Shown here: in pieces, positions 984 through 59,650 of the stretch
Layout: each line of letters starts with the position of its first letter
How positions within the stretch are numbered: position 1 is the first letter of the stretch
Source of the DNA: Kutzneria chonburiensis
GTDB taxonomy: Bacteria > Actinomycetota > Actinomycetes > Mycobacteriales > Pseudonocardiaceae
Direction of reading: 5' to 3'
Assembly (NCBI RefSeq): GCF_028622115.1
Contig: NZ_CP097263.1
Coordinates: forward strand, 5,828,001 to 5,892,000
DNA: 64,000 nt
The notes under the pieces: generated by a model
The model's database searches: none
Seen by the model: only the letters and a program-made list of their open reading frames with translations
Told to the model about the DNA's origin: nothing
Position numbers and translations under genes: made by a program

Positions 984-2057
984 CTAGCGAACCACCCGTC
1001 CACGCAGCATGATCATGGCCGGATCACGCAGCACCTGGAGATCATCTCGTGGGTCGTCGGCGAATACCAGCAGGTCAGCGGGTGATCCCTCGGTCAGTCC
1101 CGGCCAGCCCAGCCAGGATCGGGCGGCCCAGGAGCCGGCGGCGAGCGCCTGCTCGCGGCTCATCCCGGCCTCGTGCAGGGCAATCACCTCGTCGACGAGA
1201 CGGCCGTGCTTGATGCCGCCGCCCGCGTCGGTGCCGGCGTAGACCGGCACGCCGGCCTCCACCGCGCTGCTCACGGTGTGTCGCACGCGGGCGTGCAGTT
1301 CACGCATGTGGGCGGCGTAGACCGGGTACTTCTCGGCACCGTCCGCGATGGCCGGGAACAGCTCGATGTTGATCAGGGTCGGCACCAGCGCGGTGCCGCG
1401 GGCGGCCATCTCGGCGATCGTGGCGTCGGTCAGGCCGGTGCCGTGCTCGATGCAGTCGATGCCGGCGTTGATCAGGCCCGGCAGTGCGTCCTCGCCGAAC
1501 GTGTGCGCGGTGACCTTGGCCCCGGCCGCGTGGGCGACGTCAATGGCCTCCTTGAGCACCTCGTCCGGCCACAGCGGGGCCAGGTCGCCCAGGTCGCGGT
1601 CGATCCAGTCGCCGACCAGCTTGACCCAGCCGTCGCCGTACGCCGCCTGCTCGGCGACCGCGGCCGGCAGCAGCGACGGGTCCTCCAGCTCGACGCCGAG
1701 ATGCCGGATGTAGCGCCGCGGCCGGGACAGGTGCCGGCCGGCCCGCACGATCCGGGGCAGGTCGAGCCGTTCCTGGAGCGGGCGGGTGTCGATCGGCACG
1801 CCGCAGTCGCGGATCAGCAGCGTGCCGTTGTCGCGGTCGAGCTCGGCCTGCTCGGCCGCCTCGTCCAGCGTGGTCCCGCCGTTCGGGCCGAGGCCGACGT
1901 GGCAGTGCGCGTCGACCATGCCGGGCAACAGAAATCCACCGTCCACGATGGTCTCCGCGCCCGGCACGAGCTTCGTGCGCACCCGCCCGTTCACGACCCA
2001 GAGGTCGCGTTCCTCGCCGTCCGGCAGGACGACGCCCCGTAGATGGAACCCGCTCAC
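984..2057 (-). CDS. Metal-dependent amidohydrolase (imidazolonepropionase/prolidase-like)
   Basis: A 357-residue amidohydrolase-superfamily enzyme. It has the typical N-terminal beta-sandwich (VVLPDGEERDLWVVNGRV), then the first metal site HCHVG after the LLPGMVDAH turn, a second histidine in KVTAHTFGE, another in CIEHG, and the final metal Asp in YAGTDAG. The C-terminus closes with the usual SPADLLVF strand. The substrate cannot be deduced; candidates are cyclic amides or dipeptides. The GTG start overlaps the ffh stop codon by four bases (GTGA), so translation is probably coupled to ffh. The ffh-amidohydrolase pair is also found in M. tuberculosis (Rv2916c-Rv2915c), which supports calling it part of the conserved backbone. 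Confidence 0.88.
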   Translation of the reverse strand: MSGFHLRGVVLPDGEERDLWVVNGRVRTKLVPGAETIVDGGFLLPGMVDAHCHVGLGPNGGTTLDEAAEQAELDRDNGTLLIRDCGVPIDTRPLQERLDLPRIVRAGRHLSRPRRYIRHLGVELEDPSLLPAAVAEQAAYGDGWVKLVGDWIDRDLGDLAPLWPDEVLKEAIDVAHAAGAKVTAHTFGEDALPGLINAGIDCIEHGTGLTDATIAEMAARGTALVPTLINIELFPAIADGAEKYPVYAAHMRELHARVRHTVSSAVEAGVPVYAGTDAGGGIKHGRLVDEVIALHEAGMSREQALAAGSWAARSWLGWPGLTEGSPADLLVFADDPRDDLQVLRDPAMIMLRGRVVR

Positions 2058-3601
2058 TGGTCCTTGCCGAACTTGAACTTCTTCGGGTCGAAGCCGGGCG
2101 GCAGCTGGTCGAGACCGGCCAGGCCGGGCGGCAGCTCCTGCAGGCCCGGGGGCATGTTGGACAGGTCGGGCATGCCGGCCGGGAACCCGCCGGGCAGCCC
2201 GGGGAAGCCGCCGCGCATCTTGGGCTGGGTCGGGCCGCGGTTGCCCTTGCCCTTCTTCCCCTTCTTGCCCTTGCGGCTGCCGCCGCCACCGCCGAAGCCC
2301 ATCCGGCCGGCCATCTGCTTCATCATCTTGCGGGCCTCGAAGAAGCGGGTGACCAGGTCGTTCACCTCGCTCACGGACACGCCGGAGCCCTTGGAGATGC
2401 GTAGCCGCCGCGAGCCGTTGATCATCTTCGGGTCGGCCCGCTCGGCCGGCGTCATGCCGCGGATGATGGCCTGGAGCCGGTCCAGCTTCTTCTCGTCGAA
2501 GTTGGCCAGCTGGTCCTTCATCTGGCCGGCGCCGGGCAGCATGCCCAGCAGGTTGGCGATCGGGCCCATCTTGCGGACCGCCAGCATCTGCTCGAGGAAG
2601 TCCTCCAGCGTCAGCTCGCCGGTGCCCAGCTTGGCCGCGGTCTGCTGGGCCTTCTCCTGGTCGAAGTGCTGCTCGGCCTGCTCGATCAGGGTGAGCAGGT
2701 CGCCCATGCCGAGGATCCGGCTGGCCATCCGGTCCGGGTGGAAGACGTCGAAGTCGTCCAGCTTCTCGCCGTTGGAGGCGAACAGGATGGGCTGGCCGGT
2801 GACCTCGCGCACGGACAGCGCGGCACCGCCTCGGGCGTCGCCGTCGAGCTTGGTCAGCACGACACCGGTGAAGCCGACGCCGTCGCGGAAGGCCTCGGCG
2901 GTGGTCACCGCGTCCTGGCCGATCATCGCGTCGACCACGAACAGCACCTCGTCGGGCTGCACGGCAGCCTTGATGTCGGCGGCCTGCCGCATCAGCTCCT
3001 CGTCGATGCCGAGGCGGCCGGCGGTGTCGACGACGACCACGTCGTGCTGGGCCCGCTTGGCCTCGTCGAGGCCGGCCTTGGCCACCTGCACCGGGTTGCC
3101 GACGCCGTTGCCCGGCTCGGGGGCGAAGACCGGCACGCCGGCCCGCTCGCCGACCACCTGGAGCTGGGTGACCGCGTTGGGGCGCTGGAGGTCGCAGGCG
3201 ACCAGCATCGGCGTGTGGCCCTGCTTGCGCAGCCACGCCGCCAGCTTGCCGGCCAGCGTCGTCTTGCCTGCGCCCTGGAGGCCGGCGAGCATGATCACCG
3301 TCGGCGGCGTCTTGGCCAGGTTCAGCCGGCGCGTCTCGCCGCCGAGGATGCCGATGAGCTCCTCGTTGACGATCTTGACGACCTGCTGGGCCGGGTTGAG
3401 CGCGCCGGAGACCTCCGCGCCCTTGGCCCGGTCCTTGACGCCCGCGATGAACGTGCGCACGACCGGCAGGGCGACGTCCGCCTCCAGCAGGGCGATCCGG
3501 ATCTCCCGGCAGGTGGCGTCGATGTCCGCGTCGGAGAGGCGACCCTTGCCACGCAGGTTCGCCAGTACCGACGAGAGCCGGTCAGAAAGGGTGTCGAACA
3601 C
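2054..3601 (-). CDS. ffh: Signal recognition particle protein Ffh
   Basis: Ffh (SRP54) binds signal sequences of nascent membrane proteins together with the 4.5S RNA and docks on FtsY. The 515-residue protein shows the N domain, then the SRP-type GTPase: G1 GLQGAGKTT near residue 108, DLQRPNA, DTAGR (G3) and TKLDGDARGG (G4/G5). The Met-rich M domain follows (KMGPIANLLGMLPG, then MINGSRR with the RNA-binding helix-turn-helix). The C-terminus carries a Lys/Gly-rich and then Gly/Pro/Met-rich tail, longer than in E. coli but common in actinomycetes. The GTG start gives the canonical VFDTLSDRL beginning. It is divergent from the dehydrogenase gene, with 70 bp between them for both promoters. Confidence 0.97.
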   Translation of the reverse strand: MFDTLSDRLSSVLANLRGKGRLSDADIDATCREIRIALLEADVALPVVRTFIAGVKDRAKGAEVSGALNPAQQVVKIVNEELIGILGGETRRLNLAKTPPTVIMLAGLQGAGKTTLAGKLAAWLRKQGHTPMLVACDLQRPNAVTQLQVVGERAGVPVFAPEPGNGVGNPVQVAKAGLDEAKRAQHDVVVVDTAGRLGIDEELMRQAADIKAAVQPDEVLFVVDAMIGQDAVTTAEAFRDGVGFTGVVLTKLDGDARGGAALSVREVTGQPILFASNGEKLDDFDVFHPDRMASRILGMGDLLTLIEQAEQHFDQEKAQQTAAKLGTGELTLEDFLEQMLAVRKMGPIANLLGMLPGAGQMKDQLANFDEKKLDRLQAIIRGMTPAERADPKMINGSRRLRISKGSGVSVSEVNDLVTRFFEARKMMKQMAGRMGFGGGGGSRKGKKGKKGKGNRGPTQPKMRGGFPGLPGGFPAGMPDLSNMPPGLQELPPGLAGLDQLPPGFDPKKFKFGKDQ

Positions 3602-3671
3602 GGTCCGCACGACCTCGCAGCTAGACGGTGGTGTTGCGTCGAGGGTAGCCGGAGCGGTACCCACGAGTCTC

Positions 3672-4727
3672 ATGAGCGCCACGATGCCGGCCGGACGGCT
3701 CAACCTCCGCACCCTCGAGTTCGCCGTCGAGGAGGTGCCGGTGCCGACGCCGGGGCGGGGCGAGGTGCTGGTGAAGGTCGAGGCCGCGGGCGTGTGCCTG
3801 TCCGACATCCACCTGATCGACGGCACCTTGCGGCTACCCGGCAACGACCTGGAGAAGGTCACCCTCGGGCACGAGGTCGCCGGCACGATCGCCGAACTGG
3901 GCGAAGGGGTGCGTGAGGACGTCTACCCCGTGGGGCAGCGGGTGCTGCTGCTGGCCGGCATGGCGTGCGGGCGGTGCGCCAACTGTGTGCGGCAGCGGCC
4001 CGGATGTCTCAACGGGCTGACGCGTGGCGTCCAGTTCGACGGCGGTTGGGCGCACTACACGCTGGCGCGAACCGCCACCGTCTACCCCATTCCCGACAGC
4101 CTGCCCTTCGAGCAGGCGGCGATCATCCCCGACGCCGTCTCCACCCCGTACGCCGCCATCACGCAGACCGCCGCCCTTCGCCCCGCGCAGTCCGCCGGCA
4201 TCTGGGGCGTCGGCGGTCTCGGCGCTCACGGCGTGCAGATCCTGCGCTTCGCCGGCGCCGCCCCCATCATCGCCGTCGACCCTTTGCCGCACGCCCGTGA
4301 CCGCGCCCTCAAGCTCGGGGCCGACGTCGCCCTCGACCCCATGGCCGCCGACTTCCGTGAGCAGGCCTTCGCCGCCACCGACGGCCTCGGCCTCGACTAC
4401 GCCTTCGACTTCGCCGGCGTGCCCGCCGTGCGCGTCCAGGCCGACAGCGTCCTGGCCCGCAACGGCGCCGTCGTGCTCGTCGGCCTCTCCGGGCAGGCGC
4501 TGTCCCTCCCCGACGACACCGCCTTCAGCGCCGCCAGGCACCGCCTGCTCGGTCACTACGGCGGCCTGCCCGTGCACCTCGAGGAGCTCATCAAACTCGC
4601 CGCTCACCGCCGTCTGGACTTCTCCGGCTCGATCAGCGGCACCTTCCGCTTCGAGGACGCCGCCGAAGCCGTGCGCCAGCTGGCCGAGAAGGTCAACGAC
4701 CCCATCCGCCTGGTGCTGACGCCCTGA
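3672..4727 (+). CDS. Zinc-dependent medium-chain alcohol dehydrogenase
   Basis: A 351-residue MDR-family oxidoreductase. The catalytic zinc site is seen as Cys in GVCLSD and the GHEVAG motif. The structural zinc loop has four cysteines in CGRCANCVRQRPGC. The Rossmann fold has GVGGLGAHG, and an aspartate ends the second strand (IIAVDP), which favours NAD over NADP. The substrate is unknown. ATG at 3672 was chosen because it precedes the usual start of the fold by about 10 residues; a second ATG lies at 3684 and neither has a strong ribosome site. It is followed 20 bp later by a Crp-family gene in the same direction. This gene marks the start of accessory DNA inserted between ffh and glnD. Confidence 0.9.
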   Translation: MSATMPAGRLNLRTLEFAVEEVPVPTPGRGEVLVKVEAAGVCLSDIHLIDGTLRLPGNDLEKVTLGHEVAGTIAELGEGVREDVYPVGQRVLLLAGMACGRCANCVRQRPGCLNGLTRGVQFDGGWAHYTLARTATVYPIPDSLPFEQAAIIPDAVSTPYAAITQTAALRPAQSAGIWGVGGLGAHGVQILRFAGAAPIIAVDPLPHARDRALKLGADVALDPMAADFREQAFAATDGLGLDYAFDFAGVPAVRVQADSVLARNGAVVLVGLSGQALSLPDDTAFSAARHRLLGHYGGLPVHLEELIKLAAHRRLDFSGSISGTFRFEDAAEAVRQLAEKVNDPIRLVLTP

Positions 4728-4747: not shown

Positions 4748-5401
4748 ATGCCCAGAGGGGGATTCCGCGCTCTTGTCAGCGACGAGGAGTGGACCGCGCT
4801 GTTGGCGGCGGGCCACCCTCGTCCGTTCCCGCGAGGCAAAGAACTCGTACGGCAGGGTTTCTGCGGCGACTATCTGCTGGCCTTGACCCACGGCCGGGTG
4901 CAGGTGCTGCGGTCGGAGGCGGGCGGCGAGCAGAACCTGCTCGTGGCGTTGCGGGCCGGCGGAGACCTGATCGGTGAGATGGCCGCACACGGTGGCGGCG
5001 GCGTGCGCAGCGCGACCGTTGTCGCCCTTGACGACTGCCGGGCGCACACCGTGCCGGTCGAGGCGTTCGATCGGTTGCCGGCGGCGCGCAAGCTCACTGA
5101 CTACGTGGTGCTGAAGCTCTCCGAGAGCGTGCCGTTCCGCGTGCAGCTGGTGCATTTCAAGCCGCAGCAGCGGATCGCCCGGCTGCTGGCCGAACTCGTC
5201 GCACTCGCCGGACCTGAGCTGGCACATCCGATGCTGATCCCGTTGTCGCAGGAGCAGATCGCGACCGCGCTCGGCGTCGCCCGCAGCTCGGTCAGCGCGT
5301 TCATCGCCGACCTGCGCCGGGACGGTGTGCTCGGTCCGGGTCCCCGCTTGACCGTCGCCGATCCCGAGCGCCTCCTGCACTACACGTCCGAACGAGTGTG
5401 A
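4748..5401 (+). CDS. Crp/Fnr-family transcriptional regulator
   Basis: The 217-residue protein has an N-terminal cyclic-nucleotide-binding beta-roll (about residues 10-125) with the phosphate-loop region GGDLIGEMA. A dimerisation helix follows, then a C-terminal winged helix (about 145-217) containing LSQEQIATALGVARSSVSAFIADLRRDGVL, a normal Crp-type helix-turn-helix given here from QEQIA to LRRDG. The canonical RSA segment of the cAMP phosphate cassette is not present in its usual form, so the ligand is uncertain. It is 92 bp upstream of an operon whose first protein resembles a class III nucleotide cyclase. A near-perfect CRP-like palindrome overlaps its stop codon. It may regulate that operon, itself, or both; this is inference. 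Confidence 0.9.
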   Translation: MPRGGFRALVSDEEWTALLAAGHPRPFPRGKELVRQGFCGDYLLALTHGRVQVLRSEAGGEQNLLVALRAGGDLIGEMAAHGGGGVRSATVVALDDCRAHTVPVEAFDRLPAARKLTDYVVLKLSESVPFRVQLVHFKPQQRIARLLAELVALAGPELAHPMLIPLSQEQIATALGVARSSVSAFIADLRRDGVLGPGPRLTVADPERLLHYTSERV

Positions 5402-5412
5402 TGCGCAGCACA
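5397..5412. promoter_or_regulatory. Candidate Crp-type operator
   Basis: TGTGATGCGCAGCACA differs from a perfect 16-bp dyad by one pair and differs from the TGTGA-N6-TCACA consensus at one base. It overlaps the end of the Crp-family gene and lies about 80 bp before the cyclase-like operon. Binding is inferred from sequence only. Confidence 0.5.
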
Positions 5413-5419
5413 GCGTAAC

Positions 5420-5435
5420 TGTCCGTCGGCGGACA
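5420..5435. promoter_or_regulatory. Short dyad before the cyclase-like operon
   Basis: TGTCCG-TCGG-CGGACA is a perfect 6-bp inverted repeat with a 4-base centre, just after the Crp-like palindrome and about 60 bp before the next start codon. It could be an operator half of a compound control region or a weak hairpin ending the upstream transcript. Confidence 0.35.
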
Positions 5436-5493
5436 ACGACGCCTTCTGGCGCGGACGAGGCTCGATGCCGACCCGCCAAGAAGGAGGATGCCG

Positions 5494-6321
5494 ATGGCCC
5501 ACAAGACTCTGCCGCCGTACCGAGCGATGCTCGTGGTGGACCTCAAGGACTTCAGCGGTGTGCCCGCCGCTGAGCAGGGAGCGGTCGGCGGTCGGATCCC
5601 CGACCTGCTGCACGACACGTTCCAGCGCATGGGCCACGGCTATCTGTGGACCGAGGCCAAGTTCCCCGACCACACCGGTGACGGGTACGCGATGGGTTTT
5701 CGCACCAAGCACCTGCCCATCCTGGTCGACAGCTTTTCCTCTACGTTGCAACAGGAACTCGCCGATCTCGGACGGCGAACCGGTGTCCCGCAGCGGATGC
5801 GGGTGAGTCTCAGCGTCGGTCCGCTGACCGACAACTCGGGCCCGCGGATCCGGGACGGCCAGGGGGCGGCCCGGATCGAGACCCACCGGCTGCTCGACTC
5901 CGAGCCCGTGCGCGACCTGCTCACCCGGTCCAATCCGCAGGTCACCCTGGTGGCCACGATCATCTCGGCCCGGGTGTACCAGGACGTTGTCGTCGGCGGG
6001 TACTCCGAACTGCGCGCTGACCACTTCGTCGCGGCCCCGGTCAAGGTGAAGTCCTACGAAGGCAACGCATACCTGCAGGTGCCGCTCCCGTCTGGCGATC
6101 TGCTGGCGAACGGGTTCGCGCCGGTGGAGCCGCCCCGAGCCGGCGACCCTGTGGCCGATTCCGGCGAGCATGCGTCGGTGCGGATGGGCAACGTCAGCGG
6201 CAACCGGGGCACCGTGATCGGCAGCAGTCGAGGGCCCGTGCAGACCGGCAACGGCGTGCAGGTCAACGACTCCACGATCCACGGCACCGTCATGCGTGAC
6301 AAGAGGAGCGGGCGGAAATGA
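5494..6321 (+). CDS. Nucleotide-cyclase-like protein with C-terminal amyloid-like motif
   Basis: A 275-residue protein. Residues 10-190 resemble the class III adenylate/guanylate cyclase fold: VVDLKDFSG supplies the first metal Asp (D16) and HTGDGYAMGF the second (D63). A later GAARIE segment matches the NxAAR transition-state region with the Asn replaced, so catalysis is uncertain. A linker leads to a Gly/Asn/Gln-rich tail (about 229-270) containing GNVSGN, GTVIGSS and VQTGNG. The same motif begins the next protein. ATG at 5494 was chosen over 5488 because GGAGG is six bases upstream of it and directly abuts the other. The gene overlaps its downstream partner by four bases. Function unknown; the layout suggests the effector or signal generator of a conflict system. 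Confidence 0.75.
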   Translation: MAHKTLPPYRAMLVVDLKDFSGVPAAEQGAVGGRIPDLLHDTFQRMGHGYLWTEAKFPDHTGDGYAMGFRTKHLPILVDSFSSTLQQELADLGRRTGVPQRMRVSLSVGPLTDNSGPRIRDGQGAARIETHRLLDSEPVRDLLTRSNPQVTLVATIISARVYQDVVVGGYSELRADHFVAAPVKVKSYEGNAYLQVPLPSGDLLANGFAPVEPPRAGDPVADSGEHASVRMGNVSGNRGTVIGSSRGPVQTGNGVQVNDSTIHGTVMRDKRSGRK

Positions 6322-6410
6322 CGTCGCCGTCCATCGATCACAACACGGGCACCGTGATCGGCAGCAGTGAGGGGGCCGTGCAGACGGGCAACGGCGCGCA
6401 GGTCACCAAC
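6208..6410 (+). repeat. Repeated coding segment for the GTVIGSS...VQTGNG motif in two adjacent genes
   Basis: A 21-bp segment coding GTVIGSS is identical at 6208-6228 (3' end of the cyclase-like gene) and 6348-6368 (5' end of the STAND-like gene), 140 bp apart. Similarity continues for about 40 more bases through VQTGNG.Q. The two copies sit in different proteins, at the C-terminus of one and the N-terminus of the next. Confidence 0.85.
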
Positions 6411-8300
6411 AGCGAGTTCGACGAACTCTCCATGGACCGGGTGGCCGGCGACAAGTTCACCGCCGACACCATGCTGGTGCTGCAGATCGCCGGCCAGGAG
6501 ACGAATCGCCGCGTACGGGCGATGCAGTGGTTCTCCGCACGCCGGCTCTCCTCGCTGTCGGCCTGCTTCGTCGAACCAGAGGGATTCAGCCAGGCGCAGA
6601 CGGTTCTGGTCGAGAAGCGGGCCGTGCTGGTCGCCGGGCCCGCGGGCAGCGGCCGACTGACCGCGGCGGCGATGCTCCTGCACCGCGTTGGCAATGCGAG
6701 CCGGATCCGACAGGTCGACATCGACCTCGGCGACGAGGACCAGCCGGTGCTCGACACCGGTCAGGTGCAACCGGGCGAGTCACTGCTGCTCGATCTGTCC
6801 ACACTAGACCTGCCGGACTTTCTGCGGGCCAGCCGCGAACTGGGCGCGGTGGTGGACCGGGTCGCCGAGGTCGGCGGGCTGGTGGCCGTGGTGCTGCCCG
6901 ACTACGAGCGGCAGGTGCCCAGCTCGAATCTGCGCGGGCTCCGCGTGGAACTCCGGTTGACCTCCAGCCTGGCCCGCCAAGTCTTCGAGTACCACCTGAA
7001 GGCCCGCGGCGTGTCGCCCGGCGGCTCGAATCCGTTGCTGGCGGCGATGTTCGACCGCCCGCGAGCCGGTGAGCTGGCCGAACTGGCCGATCTGGTCACG
7101 GAGTCCGGAGGCATCACCGGCAGCTGGGACGAGGCGCTCGTGGTCGCGCTCGGCACGCTGTCCAACTGGTCGGCTGAGCTGACCGAGACGTTCGCCGCCC
7201 ACCCCGACGCGGCCTGGCGCAGCCTGCTGCTGGCGGCGGCACTGCTGGCCGACTGTCCGCCGGACGCTGTCTTCGAGGCGGATCGGGAGCTGGTCCGGCT
7301 GCTTGACTTCCCGGATGTCGACGAGCATCCGTTCGCGCGTCCCGGGCTGACCGAGCGGCTGGCCGACGTCGGCGCCGAGATCGTGGATGAGCAGGTGCGG
7401 TTCTCCCGCCCGCGCTACGCGGACGCCGTGCTGACCCACGTGTGGCGGAACTTCCCCGGCTTGCGGCCGACGCTGGCCGGGTGGATCGAGCAGGTACCCC
7501 GGCTGGCCCGGACGAGCCTGGTCGATCACGATCGGACACTGCTGGCCGAGCGGTTCACCACGTTGTCACTGCGGCACGGCATGATCGGCGACCTGCTGCA
7601 GACCGCACGGCGTTGGGCGAGCGTCGGTGACAACAGGACCACTGCCCTCGCGGTGCAGGTGCTCGGCCGAGCCGTGCTGGATCCCATCCATGGCTGGCAG
7701 TTCCGCCGCCGGGTCTACGCCTGGGCGCGGGACAGCTCGGTGTCCCCGAGGTTGGCCGGCGTAGTCATCGCTGTGTGCGAGAGCGTGCTGGCGACGGCCC
7801 ATCCGGAGGCCGCGATGATCCGGTTGCACCACCTGACCCGGCACCGCGACGAGACCGTCGGATCGGCGGCGGTCGAGGCGCTGCTGCGGCTGGTGGTGGG
7901 TCCGCAGTCGCACCGGTGGCTACTCGGTCGCGTCGTCGCTGGGTTGGCTGACGGGGTGCCTGGCCGTGACGTCGAATTGTTCGGACGCCTCGTCGATCCG
8001 GCGCGGTCGCACAGCCCGGAGGAATGGGACCTGATCAGGGTCGGCTGGCACGGGGCGTTGGCACGGCCGGAGAGCGTCCCATTGCTCACGGCCTGGCTGT
8101 CGACCGCGACCGAGGAACAACTGGATCTGCTGGTCGACGCCTGCGAACACCAGGTCCCGCTGCTCGGTCGCTTGCGGGCGGCCGCCGTGGCCTGGGTCGG
8201 TCAGGACCCGGCGTTCCGGCGCCGGATCGGCGAACTGCTCGACACGAAGATCGATTCTGCGATGGGTCTGACGCGCTCGGCGTCCGGCTGGAAGGAATGA
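6318..8300 (+). CDS. STAND-like protein with N-terminal amyloid-like motif and helical repeats
   Basis: A 660-residue protein that I do not recognise as a named family. Residues 8-32 hold the motif shared with the previous protein (GTVIGSS, VQTGNG). Residues 104-116 hold a degenerate P-loop, GPAGSGRLT, with Arg where Walker A has Lys. A Walker-B-like strand ESLLLDLSTL follows at about 155. The remaining 450 residues look all-helical, with Ala/Leu-rich repeats (for example near VGSAAVEALLRL) that resemble HEAT or TPR arrays. This order (signalling motif, NTPase core, repeat sensor) is that of STAND/NLR-like receptors. ATG overlaps the preceding stop as ATGA, so translation is coupled. The missing Lys suggests weak or no ATP hydrolysis. 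Confidence 0.72.
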   Translation: MTSPSIDHNTGTVIGSSEGAVQTGNGAQVTNSEFDELSMDRVAGDKFTADTMLVLQIAGQETNRRVRAMQWFSARRLSSLSACFVEPEGFSQAQTVLVEKRAVLVAGPAGSGRLTAAAMLLHRVGNASRIRQVDIDLGDEDQPVLDTGQVQPGESLLLDLSTLDLPDFLRASRELGAVVDRVAEVGGLVAVVLPDYERQVPSSNLRGLRVELRLTSSLARQVFEYHLKARGVSPGGSNPLLAAMFDRPRAGELAELADLVTESGGITGSWDEALVVALGTLSNWSAELTETFAAHPDAAWRSLLLAAALLADCPPDAVFEADRELVRLLDFPDVDEHPFARPGLTERLADVGAEIVDEQVRFSRPRYADAVLTHVWRNFPGLRPTLAGWIEQVPRLARTSLVDHDRTLLAERFTTLSLRHGMIGDLLQTARRWASVGDNRTTALAVQVLGRAVLDPIHGWQFRRRVYAWARDSSVSPRLAGVVIAVCESVLATAHPEAAMIRLHHLTRHRDETVGSAAVEALLRLVVGPQSHRWLLGRVVAGLADGVPGRDVELFGRLVDPARSHSPEEWDLIRVGWHGALARPESVPLLTAWLSTATEEQLDLLVDACEHQVPLLGRLRAAAVAWVGQDPAFRRRIGELLDTKIDSAMGLTRSASGWKE

Positions 8301-8304
8301 CCTC

Positions 8305-9066
8305 ATGTTCCGTGAGTTCTTCGCCCGGGTGCGGGCCGAGGCCGAGGCCCAGCGCGTCTCGCGGGTTCGTGTCGACAACGTGCCGATGCGGAGCCTGACC
8401 GAGCCGTACAGCTTCGAGTTCTCCTGCACGATCGAGTACGTGCTGGCGCGTCGGGGGCAGCTCCACCGCGCACTACCCGAGGTCGCGAAACACGGGATCC
8501 TGCAACGGGTCGCCCGAGTGGCGCTGGGCACGCGCCTGACCGAGGCCGCCCTGCTGCAGACCCACCTGGCGGCGGAACTGGGCCTTGGCAGCCTTGAGCC
8601 GACCGGCGAGCTGCGCGTGTGGGCGACCGACGTCGTCGTCACCGCGGCGGAGGCCGATGTCCAGGCCGTCCATCAGCGGCACGAGCTCCAGCGCAAGATG
8701 CAGGTGTGGCAGTACGAGCGCGAGATCGAGCGTAAGGCGCGTGACTTCACCGCGGAGATGCTCGCCGAACCGAACCTGGCGGTCGCGTGGTGGTTGTCGC
8801 ACAATCCGCAGCAGGTGACCCAGGCCCTTGGCATGGTCGAGCCGATCGCCCGGCTCAGCGCGATCATCCACGGCCGGCCGGCGACTGATGCCGTCGAGCT
8901 GACCACCGAGGACCAACTACTCGCCGCCACCGAGACGCTGTTCGCCGGTCTTGACGAGTGGAGCCGGGCGCTGCTCGGTGATCAGCTCGCCAAGACGTTG
9001 GCCGCGTTCGGGCAGGTCGGTCTGGCCGACCGGGTCCGCCAGCGGCTGGACACACCGGTGACCTGA
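8305..9066 (+). CDS. Hypothetical protein, possible SPFH/band-7-like with helical tail
   Basis: The third gene of the coupled operon, four bases after the previous stop with a GGAAGGAA ribosome site. The 253-residue product starts with an amphipathic Arg-rich helix, then a beta-rich section (YSFEFSCTIEYVL ... LRVWATDVVV) separated by a helical pair (HGILQRVARVAL, LTEAALLQTHLAAELG). A long charged helix follows (about 115-150). The order strand-strand, two helices, strand, then a coiled coil recalls stomatin/prohibitin (SPFH) domains, but there is no transmembrane anchor. The call is tentative. Its 3' end converges on glnD; as the sequence stands the two reading frames overlap by 150 bp, although glnD probably really ends before this gene. 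Confidence 0.6.
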   Translation: MFREFFARVRAEAEAQRVSRVRVDNVPMRSLTEPYSFEFSCTIEYVLARRGQLHRALPEVAKHGILQRVARVALGTRLTEAALLQTHLAAELGLGSLEPTGELRVWATDVVVTAAEADVQAVHQRHELQRKMQVWQYEREIERKARDFTAEMLAEPNLAVAWWLSHNPQQVTQALGMVEPIARLSAIIHGRPATDAVELTTEDQLLAATETLFAGLDEWSRALLGDQLAKTLAAFGQVGLADRVRQRLDTPVT

Positions 9067-11442
9067 GGTCCCGGTGTGTCCAGGCGGGCTACCCCTCGCG
9101 GCGGCCAGGACGGCGCGTTCGATGTCGCGGCGGCGGGTGGGGTCGAGGGGGTCGCCGTCCTGGGGGACGAGGCAGAAGGAGTCGACGACGGTGCCGCCGA
9201 GGGTGGCGACCTTGGCCCACCGCACGTCGAGCTTGGCGCCCTCCAAGGTGGCGGCGAGGCGGTGGAGGAGGCCGATGCGGTCGGCGGCGCGGAGTTCCAT
9301 GACGATGGCGCCGGCGGCCTCGTCGTCGAACCAGAGGACGCGAGGGGGCGGGGCGTCGGTTGGGGGACCGCCGTAGTCCCGTTCCTTGGCGGAGAGGCGC
9401 TCGGACAGGTGGAGCTCGCCGGCGATGGCCCGGGTGAGCTGCTCACGGATGAGGCCGGGATCGGGGAAGGAACCGAAGCGGGGCGACACGGAGAAGACGT
9501 CTACGGCTACGTCGGAGTGGGAGCGCAGGGCGGCGGAGTGGACTTCGAGGGAGTTCAGGGCCAAGACGCCGGCGGCGCGGGAGAGAAGGCCGGGACGGTC
9601 GGGGGCGACGACGGTGACGACGGCGGTCTGCCCCTCCTCGGCGATGAGCACATCGGGCTTCCCGGACAGGGAAACCTTCTGCGCCAAGGACTGCTGGGAA
9701 GCGTCGAGGGGCTCGGGCCGCGGCGAAGGCTCGCCGGCCATGGCGGCGCGGCATCGGCGAACGAGGTCGGCGATGAGACCGGACTTCCAGTCGGTCCACA
9801 CGCCGGGACCGGTGGCCAGGGAATCGGCCTCGGCCAAGGCGTGCAAGATCTCCAAGAGGGCCGGGTCGCCGCCGAGGGTCTCGACGACGCGGGTGACGGT
9901 GGCCTCGTCCTCGACGTCACGGCGAGTGGCGGTGTGCGGCAACAACAGGTGGTGCCGAACGGCGGCCGACAGCACCTGCACGTCGTTGGGCCACAACCCG
10001 AGGCGCTCGCCGATCTGGGTGGCCAGGGCGGCCCCGACCTCGGAGTGGTCGGCGTCCCGGCCCTTGCCGATGTCGTGCAGCAAAGCGGCCAGCAGCAACA
10101 GGTCCGGCCGGGAGACGGTGGTCGCGAGACGAGCGGCCTGGGCGGTGGCCTGCACGAGGTGCCGGTCGACGGTCCAGGTGTGCGCGAGGTCCCGCGGCGG
10201 CAGGTCGCGAACGGCGCCCCACTCGGGGAAAAGCCGGCCCCACAAGCCGGTCCGGTCGTACGCCTCGACGACGTCGATCAGACCGGGACCGGTGCCCAGC
10301 AGCCCCAACAGCTCTTCCCGGGCCTCCCGAGGCCACGGCTTGCGCAGCTCGGGCGAGGAATCGGCGAGACGGGTCAGAGTTCCCGGCGCGATGGGGGTGT
10401 TGGCCCTGGCGGCGGCGCCGGCGACGCGGAGCAGCAGCCCGGGGTCACGGCTGGGCACGGCATCCCGAGCCAGGGCAACCTCGTTGCCGTGCAGGACAAC
10501 GCCGTCGTCCAACGGCCGCCTGGCCGGGCCACGCCGCAAAGCCGACCGCCCGAACGCGCCGATTCCCTTACGGGGAGCGGCAGCGCGAGCCGAGCGCAAA
10601 GCGACGTCCACGGCGTAGACGACGGTCCGCCCGGCCGAGGACAACGCCCGGGCAAGGCCGAAACGGTCCCCCATGGACAGTGCGGTGGCGACCTCGTCGC
10701 CCTCCTGCGCATGCAGCACGTCACGAGATTTTCCGCTGGCGCGCCGCAATTCCGTACGGACGTCGAGCAGCAACTCCCGCGCCTGCTCGACATCGGTCCC
10801 GGGCCGGTCGATGACCTGGGCGACGGCCAGGGCGTCCACGAGCTGGAGATCACGCAGCCCGCCGCGCCCGTGCTTGAGGTCGGGCTCGACCCGGTGCGCC
10901 ACCTCGCCGGACGACGCCCAACGCCGCTTGGCCTGGTCGGCGAGCTCGTCGAGACGGTCCCTGATCCCGGCCCGCCACTGCTGCCGGGCGGAAGTGATCA
11001 GACGCTCGGCGACTTCTTGATCGCCGGCCAGGAATCTGGCCTCCAGCAAGCCAAGTGCCACCCGCAGGTCGCTGCCGGCTACGCGCAGCGCCTCGCCGAC
11101 GGTCCGCACGGAATGGTCCAGCCCAACACCGGAGTTCCACAGCGGGTACCACAGTTTCTCGGCGACCGTGTCGATGTCCTTACGTCCATTGTGGACGAGA
11201 ACGAGGTCGAGGTCCGAACCCGGCACGAAGTCCCTGCGCCCCAAGGCCCCTACGGCCACCAGGGCGGCCCCGCTGCCCACGCCGGCGGTGCCGGCGTGGG
11301 CAGTGAGCCAGAACTCGTGCAGGTCGACCAGCGCTTCTCGCAGCGCTTCCGCCGGCAGTCGCCGGTGACCCGGTGCGGGCTTGAGCAGGAGATCCCTTGC
11401 CCGCACCAGGTCATCGGCGGTGACAGCCCCCAGATCCGTCAT
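8917..11442 (-). CDS. glnD: [Protein-PII] uridylyltransferase/uridylyl-removing enzyme GlnD (3' end probably frameshifted)
   Basis: GlnD modifies and demodifies the PII protein in response to glutamine (in actinomycetes often by adenylylation). Domains in order: nucleotidyltransferase with GALGRR and GSDLDL (residues 65-80), a helical linker, an HD domain with HTWTVDRH and LLHDIGKG, and two C-terminal ACT domains (VTVVAPDRPGLL and VMELRAADRIGLL). Homology stops at about ERAVLAAARG; the frame then runs 57 codons further into the convergent gene. A TAG at 9089-9091 would close the gene if the run of four G were five, so 9089 is the likely true end. It begins 10 bp after glnB, as the last gene of amtB-glnB-glnD. 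Confidence 0.93.
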   Translation of the reverse strand: MTDLGAVTADDLVRARDLLLKPAPGHRRLPAEALREALVDLHEFWLTAHAGTAGVGSGAALVAVGALGRRDFVPGSDLDLVLVHNGRKDIDTVAEKLWYPLWNSGVGLDHSVRTVGEALRVAGSDLRVALGLLEARFLAGDQEVAERLITSARQQWRAGIRDRLDELADQAKRRWASSGEVAHRVEPDLKHGRGGLRDLQLVDALAVAQVIDRPGTDVEQARELLLDVRTELRRASGKSRDVLHAQEGDEVATALSMGDRFGLARALSSAGRTVVYAVDVALRSARAAAPRKGIGAFGRSALRRGPARRPLDDGVVLHGNEVALARDAVPSRDPGLLLRVAGAAARANTPIAPGTLTRLADSSPELRKPWPREAREELLGLLGTGPGLIDVVEAYDRTGLWGRLFPEWGAVRDLPPRDLAHTWTVDRHLVQATAQAARLATTVSRPDLLLLAALLHDIGKGRDADHSEVGAALATQIGERLGLWPNDVQVLSAAVRHHLLLPHTATRRDVEDEATVTRVVETLGGDPALLEILHALAEADSLATGPGVWTDWKSGLIADLVRRCRAAMAGEPSPRPEPLDASQQSLAQKVSLSGKPDVLIAEEGQTAVVTVVAPDRPGLLSRAAGVLALNSLEVHSAALRSHSDVAVDVFSVSPRFGSFPDPGLIREQLTRAIAGELHLSERLSAKERDYGGPPTDAPPPRVLWFDDEAAGAIVMELRAADRIGLLHRLAATLEGAKLDVRWAKVATLGGTVVDSFCLVPQDGDPLDPTRRRDIERAVLAAARGSPPGHTGTSGHRCVQPLADPVGQTDLPERGQRLGELITEQRPAPLVKTGEQRLGGGE

Positions 11443-11452
11443 GCCAGGCCTT

Positions 11453-13116
<1,664 letters not shown>

Positions 13117-54342: not shown

Positions 54343-56040
54343 CTACCGCCTGCGGCGCTGCCCGCGCAGGGCGAGCACGACCATGAAGCCGAAGATCCCG
54401 CCGAGCCACCAGAACAGCAGGGTGAGCTTCCAGGTGCCCGTGCTGGCGTCGTCCGGGTACTGCACCAGGGATACGGTCGAGGCGGCCGCGAACAGCAGGC
54501 ACAGCGCGGGGATCACTGCGAACACGGCGAGGCCCACCTTCCATCCGGTCGACCGCGCGACCGGCGTCGCCGGTGCGGGTGCAGCCGGCGGGGCGGGCGG
54601 CATGGGGCGCTGCGGGATGCGGTCGGCCGCGCGGGCCGGCTGCCACACCTTGACCTCGTCGGGCACCAGTTCGTCGATGCCGGCGATGGTCTCGGCCGAC
54701 ACGTCGTACAGGTTCGGCTCGATGCTGACGCTCACCGCGTCCGCGCCGACCAGCCGCCGCGCGCCGTCGGGCCAGCACTGCATCAGCACGCAGTCGCCGT
54801 ACAGCACGGTCAGCACACCGTGCGGCGACACCATGCTGACGCCGTCGTAGCCGAGAACCAGCGTGAGGTCCTTCTTCTGCAACGAAGGGAACTCGCCGCC
54901 GGTCGTCGCCGTGGCCGACCACATCGGGGCCTCGGCAAAACCGGCCCAGTCGACGCGGTTGCCCCGCGGCACCTGCATCAACAGCGAGCCCATGGCCTGC
55001 ACGGCCACCTCGCGCAGGTCCTCGACGGTCACGGCCGCCAACGCGGCCCGGAAGTCCGTGAGCGAGCAGCGCGGCCGGCCGTAGAGGACGTCGATCGCCT
55101 CGGCGAACACCATCGCCCGGGCCGCTTCCGGCCGGTCCAGCGAGGTGGTCGCCTTGTCCCGCACGGCTTCCAGCTCGTCGGCGTCGATACGGCCGACGCG
55201 CAGCGCGGTCAGCACGTCGATCAGCCCGCCCAGGACGGCGTCCTGCTTCTCCGGCAGCGCGTCGGCCATCGCGGTGATCGTCGCGCTCTCGCCGTCACGA
55301 GGCGCGTACGCCGCCACGACCGCGTAGGAGTTGCCGTCCTCGGTGCGCAACGCCCGGAACAGCGCCCGCTCCAACACCATCGTGAACAGCGACGCCCGGG
55401 CCGACCGCTCCACGATCGCCGTGAGACTGACCTTGCCGTTGCCCTCCTCGAAGTACGAAGGCGTCGTCGGCAGCGTGGAGGTGAGCGCCGGCAACGGCTG
55501 CGGAGATCCGGACGGCAGGGTCAGGTTCAGCCCCTCCGGCACCTCGCCGGCGATCCACAGCACCGCGTTCTCCCGCGTGAACCGGGTCGCCGCCCAGTCG
55601 CGCACGTCGTCGTCGGTGATCGCCTCCAGACCCCACTCCGGGTAGCCCGCCGCGCCGAAGCCGACGGCGCCGTAGCGCCAGACGAGCAGGCTGTCGTGCG
55701 GGCGGCCGGCCTCCTCGGTGCGCAGGATCGTCTTCTCCGTGGTGATCCGGTCCAGCGGCAGATCGCGCAGCGAGTCGCAGACGCTGGTCAGATAGGTCGT
55801 CACGGCCTTGTCGCTGCCGCTGGTGAAGAAGTGCGTGGTGGTCAGGCCGGTGGACCCGTTGGCGTCGTGCTCCAGCAGGCCGTGCCGGTGCAGCGCCAGG
55901 TGCTCGACCAGGTGCGTGATGCCGCGCCTGGACAGCGGCTCGTCGGCGCAGCCGACCCGGAACACCAGGCCGGCCGCGAGCGGGCCGGTGCTGGGGACGA
56001 CGAGCGTCCTGATGCCGCCGACCTCGGTCTCCTTGATCAC
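54343..56040 (-). CDS. Membrane-anchored M16-like metallopeptidase (module copy 1)
   Basis: A 565-residue protein with an inverted zinc motif HLVEH (HxxEH, residues 43-47) and a likely third ligand at Glu109/Glu110 (EKTILRTEEAG), as in the pitrilysin M16 family. The N-terminal half keeps the M16 fold (LVFRVGCADEP, GITHLVEHLALH); the second half adds a domain with a VTVEDLREVA segment. The C-terminus has a Pro/Ala linker and two membrane helices (about 498-521 and 536-555). No signal peptide is present, so the peptidase probably faces the cytoplasm. The GTG start overlaps the upstream DUF4034-like gene as GTGA. About half identical to copy 2 at 57036-58736. Confidence 0.8.
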   Translation of the reverse strand: MIKETEVGGIRTLVVPSTGPLAAGLVFRVGCADEPLSRRGITHLVEHLALHRHGLLEHDANGSTGLTTTHFFTSGSDKAVTTYLTSVCDSLRDLPLDRITTEKTILRTEEAGRPHDSLLVWRYGAVGFGAAGYPEWGLEAITDDDVRDWAATRFTRENAVLWIAGEVPEGLNLTLPSGSPQPLPALTSTLPTTPSYFEEGNGKVSLTAIVERSARASLFTMVLERALFRALRTEDGNSYAVVAAYAPRDGESATITAMADALPEKQDAVLGGLIDVLTALRVGRIDADELEAVRDKATTSLDRPEAARAMVFAEAIDVLYGRPRCSLTDFRAALAAVTVEDLREVAVQAMGSLLMQVPRGNRVDWAGFAEAPMWSATATTGGEFPSLQKKDLTLVLGYDGVSMVSPHGVLTVLYGDCVLMQCWPDGARRLVGADAVSVSIEPNLYDVSAETIAGIDELVPDEVKVWQPARAADRIPQRPMPPAPPAAPAPATPVARSTGWKVGLAVFAVIPALCLLFAAASTVSLVQYPDDASTGTWKLTLLFWWLGGIFGFMVVLALRGQRRRR

Positions 56041-56969
56041 TTCACACCGCCGAGGGCTTTGTCGCGCAACTGGTTGAAGGCCACGTCCGGCTTGGTGAGC
56101 CGCTTCCACGGGTATTCGCCGGCCACCTCGTCGCCGAGCGGCGCGAAGCAGGCCGCGGCCCGCTCGTGGTCGCCCATCAGACCGAACAGGTAGGCGAACA
56201 CCCCGTAGGCAGTCGGCCAGTGATAGCCGCCGACGAAGTTCGGGTGCAGCACGGACCTCTCGGCCGCCGCGATGATCTCCCGCTGCACGGCCACCTTCTT
56301 CAGGTAGCTCGATTCCTCAACGCCGTTGAGCTCGAAGTAGTGCTCCACGTGCGCCTCGCCGACGGTGGTCGGGCTCAGCGAGCCGGGCGGCGCGGCGTCC
56401 ATGCACTCACGGGCGAACGTGTGCAGCGCCTCCCACGAGCCGCTCCACTTCGGACACAGCTGCTGCACCAACTGGCTCTGCGCGGCGAAGCTGTGCGGGG
56501 CGAACCGCGCCAGTCGGTCGTAGCGGCGGCGGGCCTCGCTCTGCCCGACCTCCAGCCCACGGGCGCTACGCAGCCGGAACACCCAGGCCACCACATCGCC
56601 CGGGTCCTCGGCCGTCAGCTCCAACAGGATCGGCTCCGCCTTGAGCAGTTGCGCACGCATGCCGATGAACTGGTCTCGCCGGACGTGGGTGGCCCGCTTG
56701 CTCGAACGGATCTCCCACGCCTTGGAGATCAGCCGCGCGGCCAGCAGCCGCCGGGCCAGCGGCGACGGCGGCAGCGCGGCCAGGAACTCCTCCGCGCCGG
56801 TCACCTCGGCCACGACGTGGGCCGCGAACGCGGTCATGTCGACGTCGGGCAGGCCGGCGAAGAACAGCTCGATGGCCGTCCAGTCGGCCGCGCGCACCGA
56901 CTCGCGCAACTCGAGCAGCTCAGGGAAGGCCGCCGCCTGATCGAACCGGCGGGCCGGGGGCGTGATCAC
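56037..56969 (-). CDS. DUF4034-like helical protein (module copy 1)
   Basis: A 310-residue all-helical protein, the first gene of the module. LELRESVRAADW, GQSEARRRYDRLARFAPHSF, LCPKWSGSWEALHTFARECMDAAPPGS (quoted as LCPKWSGSWEALHTFARE and AAPPGS) and AHVEHYFEL resemble DUF4034-type TPR-like proteins of actinomycetes. It has no signal peptide. It probably binds a protein partner, the coupled M16 peptidase being the obvious one. GTG at 56969 lies only six bases after a 26-bp element shared with copy 2, so the mRNA may be leaderless. Confidence 0.75.
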   Translation of the reverse strand: MITPPARRFDQAAAFPELLELRESVRAADWTAIELFFAGLPDVDMTAFAAHVVAEVTGAEEFLAALPPSPLARRLLAARLISKAWEIRSSKRATHVRRDQFIGMRAQLLKAEPILLELTAEDPGDVVAWVFRLRSARGLEVGQSEARRRYDRLARFAPHSFAAQSQLVQQLCPKWSGSWEALHTFARECMDAAPPGSLSPTTVGEAHVEHYFELNGVEESSYLKKVAVQREIIAAAERSVLHPNFVGGYHWPTAYGVFAYLFGLMGDHERAAACFAPLGDEVAGEYPWKRLTKPDVAFNQLRDKALGGVK

Positions 56970-56975
56970 CAGCGA

Positions 56976-57001
56976 GACAATAGATGAAAACCCTTCATCT
57001 A
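56976..57001 (-). promoter_or_regulatory. 26-bp partly palindromic element, module copy 1
   Basis: ATAGATGAA and TTCATCTAT form a perfect 9-bp dyad with a 5-base centre (56980-57002). The 26 bp match the element before copy 2 at 20 positions, and both end six bases before the start codon. TATTGT at -13 to -8 could be a -10 hexamer of a leaderless promoter. Confidence 0.6.
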
Positions 57002-57035
57002 TGTGGCGGTGTCCCGGTGTGCCGTGGAATCGCTC

Positions 57036-58736: not shown

Positions 58737-59650
58737 CCGTTCCCCCCTACAGCGGCGGATCTGAGCTCCTCGAATCCGGCCGCGGGGTTCTTATAGCACC
58801 AGGACCACGGATAATCACTGGCCAGGTCGCCCAGTGCGCGGAAGTGCACGGCCGCTTTGTGCGGATTGCCCGCCCAGGAGGAAAGGATCGCGAACACGCC
58901 GTGCGCCTCCACCCAGCCCGGAACCGGGCGAAACGCCGGATGGAACAGGGACTTGCGGGCCGCCGCGTCCAGTTCCGCCTCGACGCCGGCCAGATACTCC
59001 CGCCGTTTGTCCTTGTCGTTGATGTTGTGGGCGTGTTCCAGGTGCGCCTCGGCGACCACGGTCGCGCACAACGACCCTGGCGGCGCGGCGTCGAGGCATT
59101 CCCGCGCGAATCCGTGCAGTGAATCCCAGGAACCGCCCCATTTCGGACAAAGCTGCTGGGCCAAAGCGGACTGTCCCGAAAAATGGTGCGGATCGGCCCG
59201 GGCCAACCGGTCATAGCGGCGCCGCGCCTCGCTCTGACCGAGCCCCAGCCCCTGGCACACCGTGATCCGCTCACGCCAGGCCAGGACATCGGACGGATCG
59301 GCCGCGGTGAGGTCGATCAGGATCGCCTCGGCGCTGCGCAGCTGCTCGTGCATGCCGGCGAACTGCTCGGCCGACACGTGCTTGGCCAGCTTGTCGCTGC
59401 GGATCTCCCAGGCGTGAACGATGTGCCGCGCCGCCAGCAGCAGCCGGCTCAGCCGCGACGGCGGCACCCGCCGCAGGAACTCCTCGACCCCTTTGACCTT
59501 GGCCACGACCCGGACCGCCACCGTCATCCCGTCGTCGGGGATGGTGGCGAAGAACTGCTCGACGGCCGGCCAGTCGCCGGCCGCGAGTGCCGCCTCCAAC
59601 CGGAGATACACGGGAAAGGCCGCGGTGAGCTCGAATCTCGGAGACGTCAC
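58733..59650 (-). CDS. DUF4034-like helical protein (module copy 2)
   Basis: A 305-residue paralogue of the 56037-56969 product. It shares GQSEARRRYDRLAR, LCPKWGGSWDSLHGFARECLDAAPPGS (quoted as LCPKWGGSWDSLHGFARE) and AHLEHAHNI. The N-terminal regions also align (LEAALAAGDWPAVEQFFATIPD with LRESVRAADWTAIELFFAGLPD, quoted as ADW and GDW helices). GTG at 59650, six bases after the shared 26-bp element. It is the head of the second module and is coupled to the M16-like gene by ATGA. Confidence 0.75.
   Translation of the reverse strand: MTSPRFELTAAFPVYLRLEAALAAGDWPAVEQFFATIPDDGMTVAVRVVAKVKGVEEFLRRVPPSRLSRLLLAARHIVHAWEIRSDKLAKHVSAEQFAGMHEQLRSAEAILIDLTAADPSDVLAWRERITVCQGLGLGQSEARRRYDRLARADPHHFSGQSALAQQLCPKWGGSWDSLHGFARECLDAAPPGSLCATVVAEAHLEHAHNINDKDKRREYLAGVEAELDAAARKSLFHPAFRPVPGWVEAHGVFAILSSWAGNPHKAAVHFRALGDLASDYPWSWCYKNPAAGFEELRSAAVGGNG

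Follow-up and report, generated by a model that had tools for sequence, protein, structure and literature searches.

Locus-private motifs evolve in concert in a predicted nucleotide cyclase and its NLR-like neighbour within a four-gene cassette of actinomycetes

How might an NLR-like protein communicate with the enzyme encoded directly before it? The question is raised by three coupled genes in a 64,000-nucleotide stretch of Kutzneria chonburiensis DNA (contig NZ_CP097263.1, positions 5,828,001 to 5,892,000), hereafter the window, which comes from a 10.4 Mb genome assembled as a single contig. The original prediction, made from the letters alone, took these cyclase-like, STAND-like and possibly band-7-like genes for a self-contained sensing and signalling system. 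The analysis supports that view and adds the link between receptor and enzyme that was missing from it: a short motif shared by the C-terminal tail of the cyclase (gene 1) and the N-terminus of the NLR-like protein (gene 2). In the window, the tail carries GTVIGSSRGPVQTGNGVQV and the N-terminus GTVIGSSEGAVQTGNGAQV, which are the same motif, and the two DNA copies are 81% identical. The motif pair of a related locus, L036, differs from that of the window and is matched within its own locus (GTVITAPDGPVQTGDGQQI / GTVITAPSGPTQTGDGQQI), and so are the pairs of L045 (TMNFSGASGTFVGVNQNSTNHGKQNY / TMDFSSASGMFSGINQNSPNHGTQNY) and L061 (GDVHQSRDHVQHGG / GDVHQSRDHIHHGD).

The comparison was based on 61 cyclase loci, namely the window and 60 fetched loci chosen by cyclase match. 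Fifty-nine of the fetched loci came from the upper part of the match list (to E 3.6e-38, with seven rows in that range omitted), and the sixtieth, L092, holds the second cyclase of the window's own genome. The NTPase gene adjoins the cyclase gene in 46 of the 61 loci, and all 46 contain both gene 3, which encodes an SPFH protein, and a Crp gene. The co-occurrence in other genomes on which the original prediction hinged was thus found. The Crp gene lies directly upstream on the same strand in each of the 46 loci, and is present in six of the 15 loci that lack an NLR-like gene. The NLR reading frame of L052 is split; its first piece was counted among the 46 pairs, and the locus was omitted from alignments A2 and A3.

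Across the 46 loci, the motif match score averaged 79.5 for matched and 32.3 for mismatched pairs, and none of 20,000 permutations gave a value as high. The matching holds in sets thinned to below 70% (n = 30) and below 60% (n = 15) cyclase identity, and among the loci below 50% (n = 7) six of 20,000 permutations were as high. The NLR-like protein of the same locus ranked first for 28 of the 46 tails; after thinning, it did so for 21 of 30 (below 70%) and 12 of 15 (below 60%). In the set of 30, motif similarity was 0.56 within loci and 0.17 between them, with cyclase domains 51% identical, and the tail was closer to its own NLR-like protein than to any other tail in 26 loci (19 of 46 with close relatives kept). 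At 716 identical residues with a choice of codon (44 pairs; L067 and L069 were omitted from the codon and composition counts), the fraction of identical codons was 0.668, compared with 0.532 expected; therefore, most pairs are old and have been kept as protein. Within the genus, the motif is of the long form in both partners in two species, and in two others its second half is missing from both partners. Matched motifs occur also in Kribbella, Saccharopolyspora, Pseudonocardia, Frankia (L143) and Nocardiopsis, as compared without a permutation control, and the pair on a Streptomyces plasmid is matched, with none of 2000 shuffles as high. These results show that the locus-private matched motifs evolve in concert, and the pairing of the NLR-like protein with the cyclase is almost certainly mediated by them.

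Relatives of gene 1 were found in at least 131 of 249 genomes of the family (E<=0.001) and the NLR-like family in at least 124 of 249, and a phylum-wide search was positive in at least 8 of 396 genomes. These tallies are lower bounds, with six candidates scored per genome in the phylum-wide search, ten for the cyclase in the family and four for the NLR-like family. Ten groups of loci, comprising 31 of the 46, have flanking genes that are common within the group, and the remaining 15 loci share flanks with none. Ten plasmid records match, none of which covers 80% of the query.

A profile search and an AlphaFold2 model, in which the tail is disordered, give gene 1 the fold of a class III cyclase. 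By sequence alone, searches with PDB phmmer, Pfam, NCBIfam and PADLOC gave nothing useful for gene 1, so that its assignment derives from the profile and the model. The metal-binding aspartates noticed previously are real, and the predicted fold is that of a cyclase domain, as had been anticipated: D18 and D65, together with R134 and K188, are invariant in all 59 members of the cyclase alignment (A1, from which L084 and L092 were omitted). The putative catalytic arginine, R129, is present in 44 of the 46 NLR-linked cyclases vs one of the 13 NLR-less ones, and given this pattern the two kinds of cyclase may differ in activity. The transition-state Asn and Arg and the triphosphate-binding Lys are putative assignments, made in part from the profile alignment. 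We consider it quite likely that the cyclase is enzymatically active. In two loci (L039, oriented 6425-12651, and L047, 6319-12552), each cassette has two cyclase and two SPFH genes; the first cyclase, encoded upstream of crp, is about 200 residues long and has no tail, which suggests a heterodimer.

Gene 2 had been noted as STAND-like. The nSTAND3 match of the window protein is below the Pfam cut-off (22 bits vs 27.2, E 1.4e-4), and nSTAND3 is matched at E<=0.01 by 28 of the 45 members of the family, the best of them with E 1e-6. The unusual arginine in the P-loop proved to be genuine and to be the rule in the family, with Arg in 31 of 45 members and Lys in two. The helical C-terminal part is HEAT-like by profile only, and the profile matches a designed helical-repeat protein (1.7e-5). 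The window genome contains a second, split NLR-like relative at C1:8158600-8168000 (L223), followed by an SPFH-like gene, and no cyclase, TIR-like or Crp gene was found there. In a relative from the genus (L214, oriented, 1889-4036, minus strand), a shortened NLR-like gene and an SPFH gene adjoin a gene for a 715-residue protein with the N-terminal RHIM-like motif GAVVQAGVVHGDI.

The third product, noted earlier as possibly band-7-like, has an SPFH fold. The window copy has no Pfam match, and among 45 members searched 34 Pfam families were matched, each in at most four members. Gene 3 resembles stomatin, HflK/C and prohibitin in its fold and in the long helix that follows it, and differs from them in the missing Pfam match and in the lack, in the window copy, of the N-terminal transmembrane hairpin that many of its relatives have.

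Residues G76, E77, R87 and A89 of the Crp protein are invariant in 52 Crps. The spacing of the first three is the same as that of the cyclic-nucleotide-binding residues G86, E87 and R97 of the Pycsar protein PsPycTIR (PMC11224242). Two operator-like boxes precede the cyclase gene. Forty of the 46 loci have box 2, TGTCC-N6-GGACA, with at most one mismatch in the gap between crp and the cyclase gene, compared with 6 of 593 stretches that precede other genes of these loci. Box 1, TGTGA-N6-TCACA, is present with at most two mismatches in 39 of the 46 loci and in 33 of the 593 comparison stretches, and with at most one mismatch in 22 and 3 of them, respectively. Both boxes, 22-24 bp apart, are present in 33 of the 46 loci. 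In none of the 46 loci did a stretch of 290 bp, located approximately upstream of crp, contain either box with at most one mismatch, and upstream of the TIR genes described below box 2 was found in none of 27 and box 1 (at most two mismatches) in one. We infer that Crp would bind the two boxes, and it is likely, as predicted from its conserved residues, that it reads a cyclic nucleotide. The role of reader or controller proposed for Crp is supported by its linkage to all 46 loci, the invariant phosphate cassette, the tandem boxes, and the absence of Crp from both strands of 30 selected NTPase loci without a cyclase. In the window genome, TGTCCG-N4-CGGACA occurs at five places, compared with one for a reversed-pattern control. 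The other four places are near genes without an evident link, as judged by eye, and a Crp regulon beyond the cassette is not claimed.

The NLR-like family also occurs without a cyclase. We selected 30 NLR loci by eye as lacking a listed cyclase, in stretches of about 10 kb (7.2 kb for L204). In 27 of them, a TIR-like gene occupies the position of the cyclase directly upstream of the NLR-like gene, mostly with the same four-nucleotide overlap; Pfam TIR_2 was run on ten of these genes and matched all ten, eight of them above the cut-off. The remaining three loci (L214, L215 and L223), one of which is in the window genome, come from the window's genus and have an NLR-like gene with no TIR-like gene directly before it. 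Searched on both strands, the fetched stretches of the 30 loci yielded no Crp and no cyclase, and 15 of the loci have an SPFH gene. The tails of the TIR-like proteins also match the N-termini of their NLR-like partners (50.6 matched vs 35.0 mismatched; none of 20,000 permutations as high). The pairs are less sharp, with the own partner ranking first in 5 of 27 and several pairs without a match, for example L204, L217 and L218. TIR domains have been reported with bacterial amyloid signalling sequences (BASS; PMC7889193), which supports the cyclase as an alternative effector. A tree of 73 NLR rows requires the effector label to change twice, and a single change may also suffice; frequent effector swapping was therefore rejected. 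The exchange of effectors is real but rare.

Are the matched motifs of the amyloid kind? In composition they are rich in G, N, Q and V and poor in L, K and E (G 20%, N 10%, Q 6%, L 0.8%, K 0.8%). Sixteen of the 46 NLR-linked tails (mean 0.9 and maximum 5 in shuffles) and 12 of the 13 NLR-less ones (mean 0.2, maximum 2) contain a RHIM-like pattern, which also occurs in two of 46 NLR N-termini, a number not above chance (mean 0.4, maximum 3). In 15 of the 16 linked tails the pattern is located before, at or inside the private motif, and therefore about a third of the linked cyclases have two motifs; the sixteenth, L067, is without a matched motif. In Nocardiopsis alkaliphila, the common motif is itself RHIM-like (GQVVQAGHLHGGVSF / GQVVNAGRVDGGVHY). 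The NLR-less cyclase gene of L074 is located two genes after that of an NB-ARC/TPR protein starting MIQAGTINGDI. For a published BASS3 peptide, which binds Congo red (PMC8086366), the alignment with the tail of L033, the nearest relative, was better than that of 996 of 1000 shuffles. We consider it probable that the motif takes an amyloid fold, as predicted from these sequences.

The cassette resembles published BASS pairs of NLR and effector (PMC7889193, PMC8086366, PMC12261475, PMC9815663) in several respects. BASS pairs run from an effector C-terminus to an NLR N-terminus, are encoded by adjacent or overlapping genes, and occur in filamentous bacteria (PMC7889193). The cassette shares with them the gene arrangement, the placement of a G/N/Q/V-rich motif and the occurrence in filamentous actinomycetes, and in part of the family also RHIM- or BASS3-like motifs and TIR as an alternative effector. 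The effectors named in the same sources are Bell, CHAT and TIR, whereas that of the cassette is a nucleotide cyclase with a Crp of its own. The cassette differs further in that the motif is private to a locus or a small group of relatives, that some tails have two motifs, and that the Walker lysine of the NTPase is mostly lost. Just beyond the NLR-less cyclase of L074, a TIR-NPCBM protein and a second Crp-like gene are encoded (8766-9656 and 10926-11546, both on the minus strand).

A membrane-effector gene accompanies some of the cassettes. A gene for PycTM, divergent and 0.9-1.5 kb before the cyclase gene, was found by tblastn in 11 of the 61 loci, all NLR-linked. Two of these proteins and that of a Streptomyces plasmid match the PADLOC PycTM model with E values of 1.5e-27, 2.2e-22 and 4.8e-37. 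In three Streptomycetaceae plasmid loci, a relative is located upstream on the same strand; in one of the three, L162, the NLR gene is broken by IS701. The PycTM neighbours suggest that the product of the cyclase is a cyclic mononucleotide.

Taken together, crp, cyclase, NLR-like and SPFH genes would form a four-gene signalling cassette in which, on balance of the comparative evidence, the receptor would switch the cyclase on and Crp would read the signal, and a role in biological conflict is somewhat more probable than not. More tentatively, and with slightly more doubt than belief, we propose prion-gated second-messenger immunity, in which the NLR-like sensor would activate the cyclase by amyloid templating through the locus-private barcode, and the cyclic nucleotide would drive a response through the dedicated Crp, as well as a Pycsar membrane effector in some of the relatives. 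A threat sensed through the helical part would cause the STAND-type protein to oligomerise. Its N-terminal motif would adopt an amyloid-type (beta-arch) fold and template the same motif on the cyclase tail. Class III cyclases build their active site at the dimer interface, and the resulting crowding of cyclases would for this reason switch them on. The cyclic mononucleotide would bind the Crp of the cassette. By acting on the tandem boxes that precede the cyclase gene, Crp would give feedback and may set off a wider response; the nucleotide would probably also gate PycTM in some relatives. The SPFH protein probably scaffolds the complex or targets it to the membrane, and the likely outcome is an abortive or stress response. 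The likelihoods given to these steps are judgements, and the steps are not independent.

Several observations weigh against this mechanism. Relatives share motifs, so that only 28 of the 46 tails rank their own NLR-like protein first; a score of at least 40 is reached by 409 of 2070 mismatched pairs, compared with 44 of 46 matched ones; and two loci, L067 (score 20) and L069 (score 21), have no motif match. The resemblance to BASS3 is modest, with 33 of 1000 shuffles as good for the window tail and 174 of 1000 for the window NLR N-terminus. The Walker A lysine is absent from 43 of 45 NLR-like members, and switching by NTP may not occur. Kaur 2020 (PMC7159879) describes inactive STAND modules as the third component of vWA-MoxR ternary systems and of conflict systems related to them, and the missing lysine therefore lowers the claim of NTP switching and not that of kinship to STAND. 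In the cyclase, the usual Asn position is mostly S, Q, K or T and the base-choice positions are not conserved, as mapped in part from the profile alignment. The effector exchange occurred only once or twice on the tree, and the absence of Crp from the TIR loci is thus not a set of many independent events. PycTM (PF18967, E<=0.001) was not found in the window genome, no match was found among phage records, and the flanks of the window site are of a housekeeping type, named by eye, and not those of a defence island.

The matched motifs could instead be recognition tags without an amyloid fold, such as a short beta-helix or beta-zipper, which hold together a standing sensor-effector complex that is activated by ordinary conformational change. 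The motif pairing itself does not require amyloid, the modelled tail is disordered and 30 of the 46 NLR-linked tails have no RHIM-like pattern; we nevertheless regard such tags as unlikely, as the positions of the motifs and their make-up fit published BASS pairs, and so do the RHIM-like motifs of the NLR-less tails and the NB-ARC neighbour. A recent functionless duplication of DNA at the gene junction has very little to recommend it. The identity of the window copies and the modest excess of shared codons, which hints at some conversion, would agree with a duplication, but the motifs score at least 40 in 44 of 46 loci and are very different between lineages, and their codons have mostly diverged, so that the protein was kept while the DNA changed.

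Other explanations accept the pairing and differ on what it is for. A housekeeping or developmental cyclic-nucleotide switch of filamentous actinomycetes, with no part in defence or cell death, would suit the 31 loci in groups with common flanking genes, the window neighbours that look by eye like ffh, glnD, glnB and amtB, and a transcriptional output through Crp. It is improbable in view of the patchy spread, the many sites, the plasmid copies and the site found empty in two genomes of the genus, and of the TIR genes in the place of the cyclase, the PycTM neighbours and the hypervariable matched motifs. The cyclase domain might also be a pseudoenzyme that only binds a nucleotide, with Crp as an ordinary operon regulator. 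Inactive cyclic nucleoside monophosphate (cNMP) cyclases are described in conflict systems (Kaur 2020, PMC7159879), and the unusual residue at the Asn position and the unconserved base-selecting positions point the same way. With both metal-binding aspartates, R134 and K188 invariant, R129 kept in nearly all NLR-linked cyclases, the phosphate cassette of Crp invariant and PycTM genes nearby, however, we hold a pseudoenzyme to be less probable still.

The cassette has parts in common with further known systems. With Pycsar it shares the class III cyclase fold, a cyclic-nucleotide reader with the same G-E-x9-R phosphate cassette, and PycTM beside some relatives; the window Crp matches PADLOC PycTIR at 6.3e-8 through its cyclic-nucleotide-binding domain. 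It differs in that the reader is a DNA-binding Crp, gating would be by the NLR-like partner, the window genome has no PycTM, and the PADLOC PycC models (E<=0.01) matched none of the 59 cyclase members. Because of this last result, we place the cassette with NLR-amyloid signalling and not with Pycsar. The closest published descriptions found concern actinobacterial conflict systems (Kaur 2020, PMC7159879), with cNMP cyclases coupled to band-7 domains and, beside some of the systems, CRP-like genes. The cassette resembles the vWA-MoxR ternary systems of that paper in its cNMP cyclase, band-7 protein, possibly inactive STAND and CRP-like neighbour, but its domains are encoded separately, and a short matched motif links them in place of EADs or fusion; no MoxR or vWA genes were recognised by eye among the neighbours, and no search was aimed at such genes. 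Gene 1 is similar to Ma1120 and other class III cyclases in its fold, its two metal-binding aspartates and the lysine at the putative triphosphate position, and differs from them in its low identity of about 15%, its Asn and base-choice residues and its disordered signalling tail.

The operon had been put forward as a candidate undescribed one. Its parts are of known kinds, so that the word fits their combination only, and no description of the crp-cyclase-NLR-SPFH combination was found in the open PMC literature, as judged by titles and abstract openings of the papers listed. If the proposed mechanism is true, the cassette joins NLR amyloid signalling and cyclic-nucleotide second messengers, two immune principles known apart, and would give bacterial NLR-like proteins a transcriptional output via Crp, with a candidate operator of a distinctive tandem form. 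With several dozen natural motif pairs, both cognate and non-cognate, on a single protein scaffold, the cassette would allow direct tests of the specificity of amyloid signalling.

The arrangement of the locus (Table 1) bears out the three coupled plus-strand genes of the original prediction, with an ATGA overlap of genes 1 and 2 at 6318-6321 and a gap of four nucleotides between genes 2 and 3. The GGAGG at 5483-5487 directly abuts the ATG at 5488, and for that reason the ATG at 5494 is the better start of gene 1.

Table 1. Features of the cassette, in window positions
Feature	Position	Strand	Remarks
crp (Crp/Fnr-family regulator)	4748..5401	+	Cyclic-nucleotide-binding domain and winged helix-turn-helix (HTH); Pfam cNMP_binding 4.5e-13, HTH_Crp_2 1.3e-13
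Operator-like box 1	5397..5412	.	TGTGA-N6-TCACA type, here TGTGATGCGCAGCACA; overlaps crp stop codon
Operator-like box 2	5420..5435	.	TGTCC-N6-GGACA, here TGTCCGTCGGCGGACA; starts 23 bp downstream of box 1 start
Gene 1, divergent class III nucleotide cyclase with disordered tail	5494..6321	+	Alternative start 5488
Cyclase C-terminal signalling motif (putative), NRGTVIGSSRGPVQTGNGVQVNDSTIH	6201..6283	+	83-nucleotide repeat; own NTPase ranks 1 among 46 N-termini
Gene 2, NLR-like protein	6318..8300	+	Motif, then STAND-type NTPase module (nSTAND3-like), then helical C-terminal part
NLR-like N-terminal signalling motif (putative), NTGTVIGSSEGAVQTGNGAQVTNSEFD	6341..6423	+	81% DNA identity to 6201-6283
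Degenerate Walker A, GPAGSGRLT	6636..6662	+	Arg in place of canonical Lys
Gene 3, SPFH/band-7 protein	8305..9066	+	SPFH fold; no N-terminal transmembrane hairpin here

The cassette behaves as an insertion. The proposed site between ffh and glnD is empty in two genomes of the genus, and is refined here in that two further genes, crp and one for an alcohol-dehydrogenase-like protein, separate ffh from the trio. By gene calls, the cassette is absent from the site in L228, where glnD is 22 bp from the dehydrogenase gene, and in L229, where only a gene for 194 residues separates glnD from ffh. Four genomes of the genus, including that of the window, have the cassette beside glnD with common flanking genes and glnD downstream. 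The window neighbours, which resemble ffh, glnD, glnB and amtB, are of a housekeeping type. Names of flanking genes, including that of the dehydrogenase, were given by eye unless a family search is stated, and gene calls in the relatives are approximate, having been made with a codon-model caller that overlooked gene 3 of the window.

Two further observations concern the window. The glnD frame (8917-11442, minus strand) encodes 841 residues, compared with 784-788 in five genomes of the genus, and continues in antisense for about 150 bp beneath the 3' end of the gene for the SPFH protein. At 54343-59611 on the minus strand, two similar gene pairs are located in tandem, each encoding a product of about 565 residues, with a similar opening sequence, and one of about 300 residues, and the arrangement looks like a duplication.

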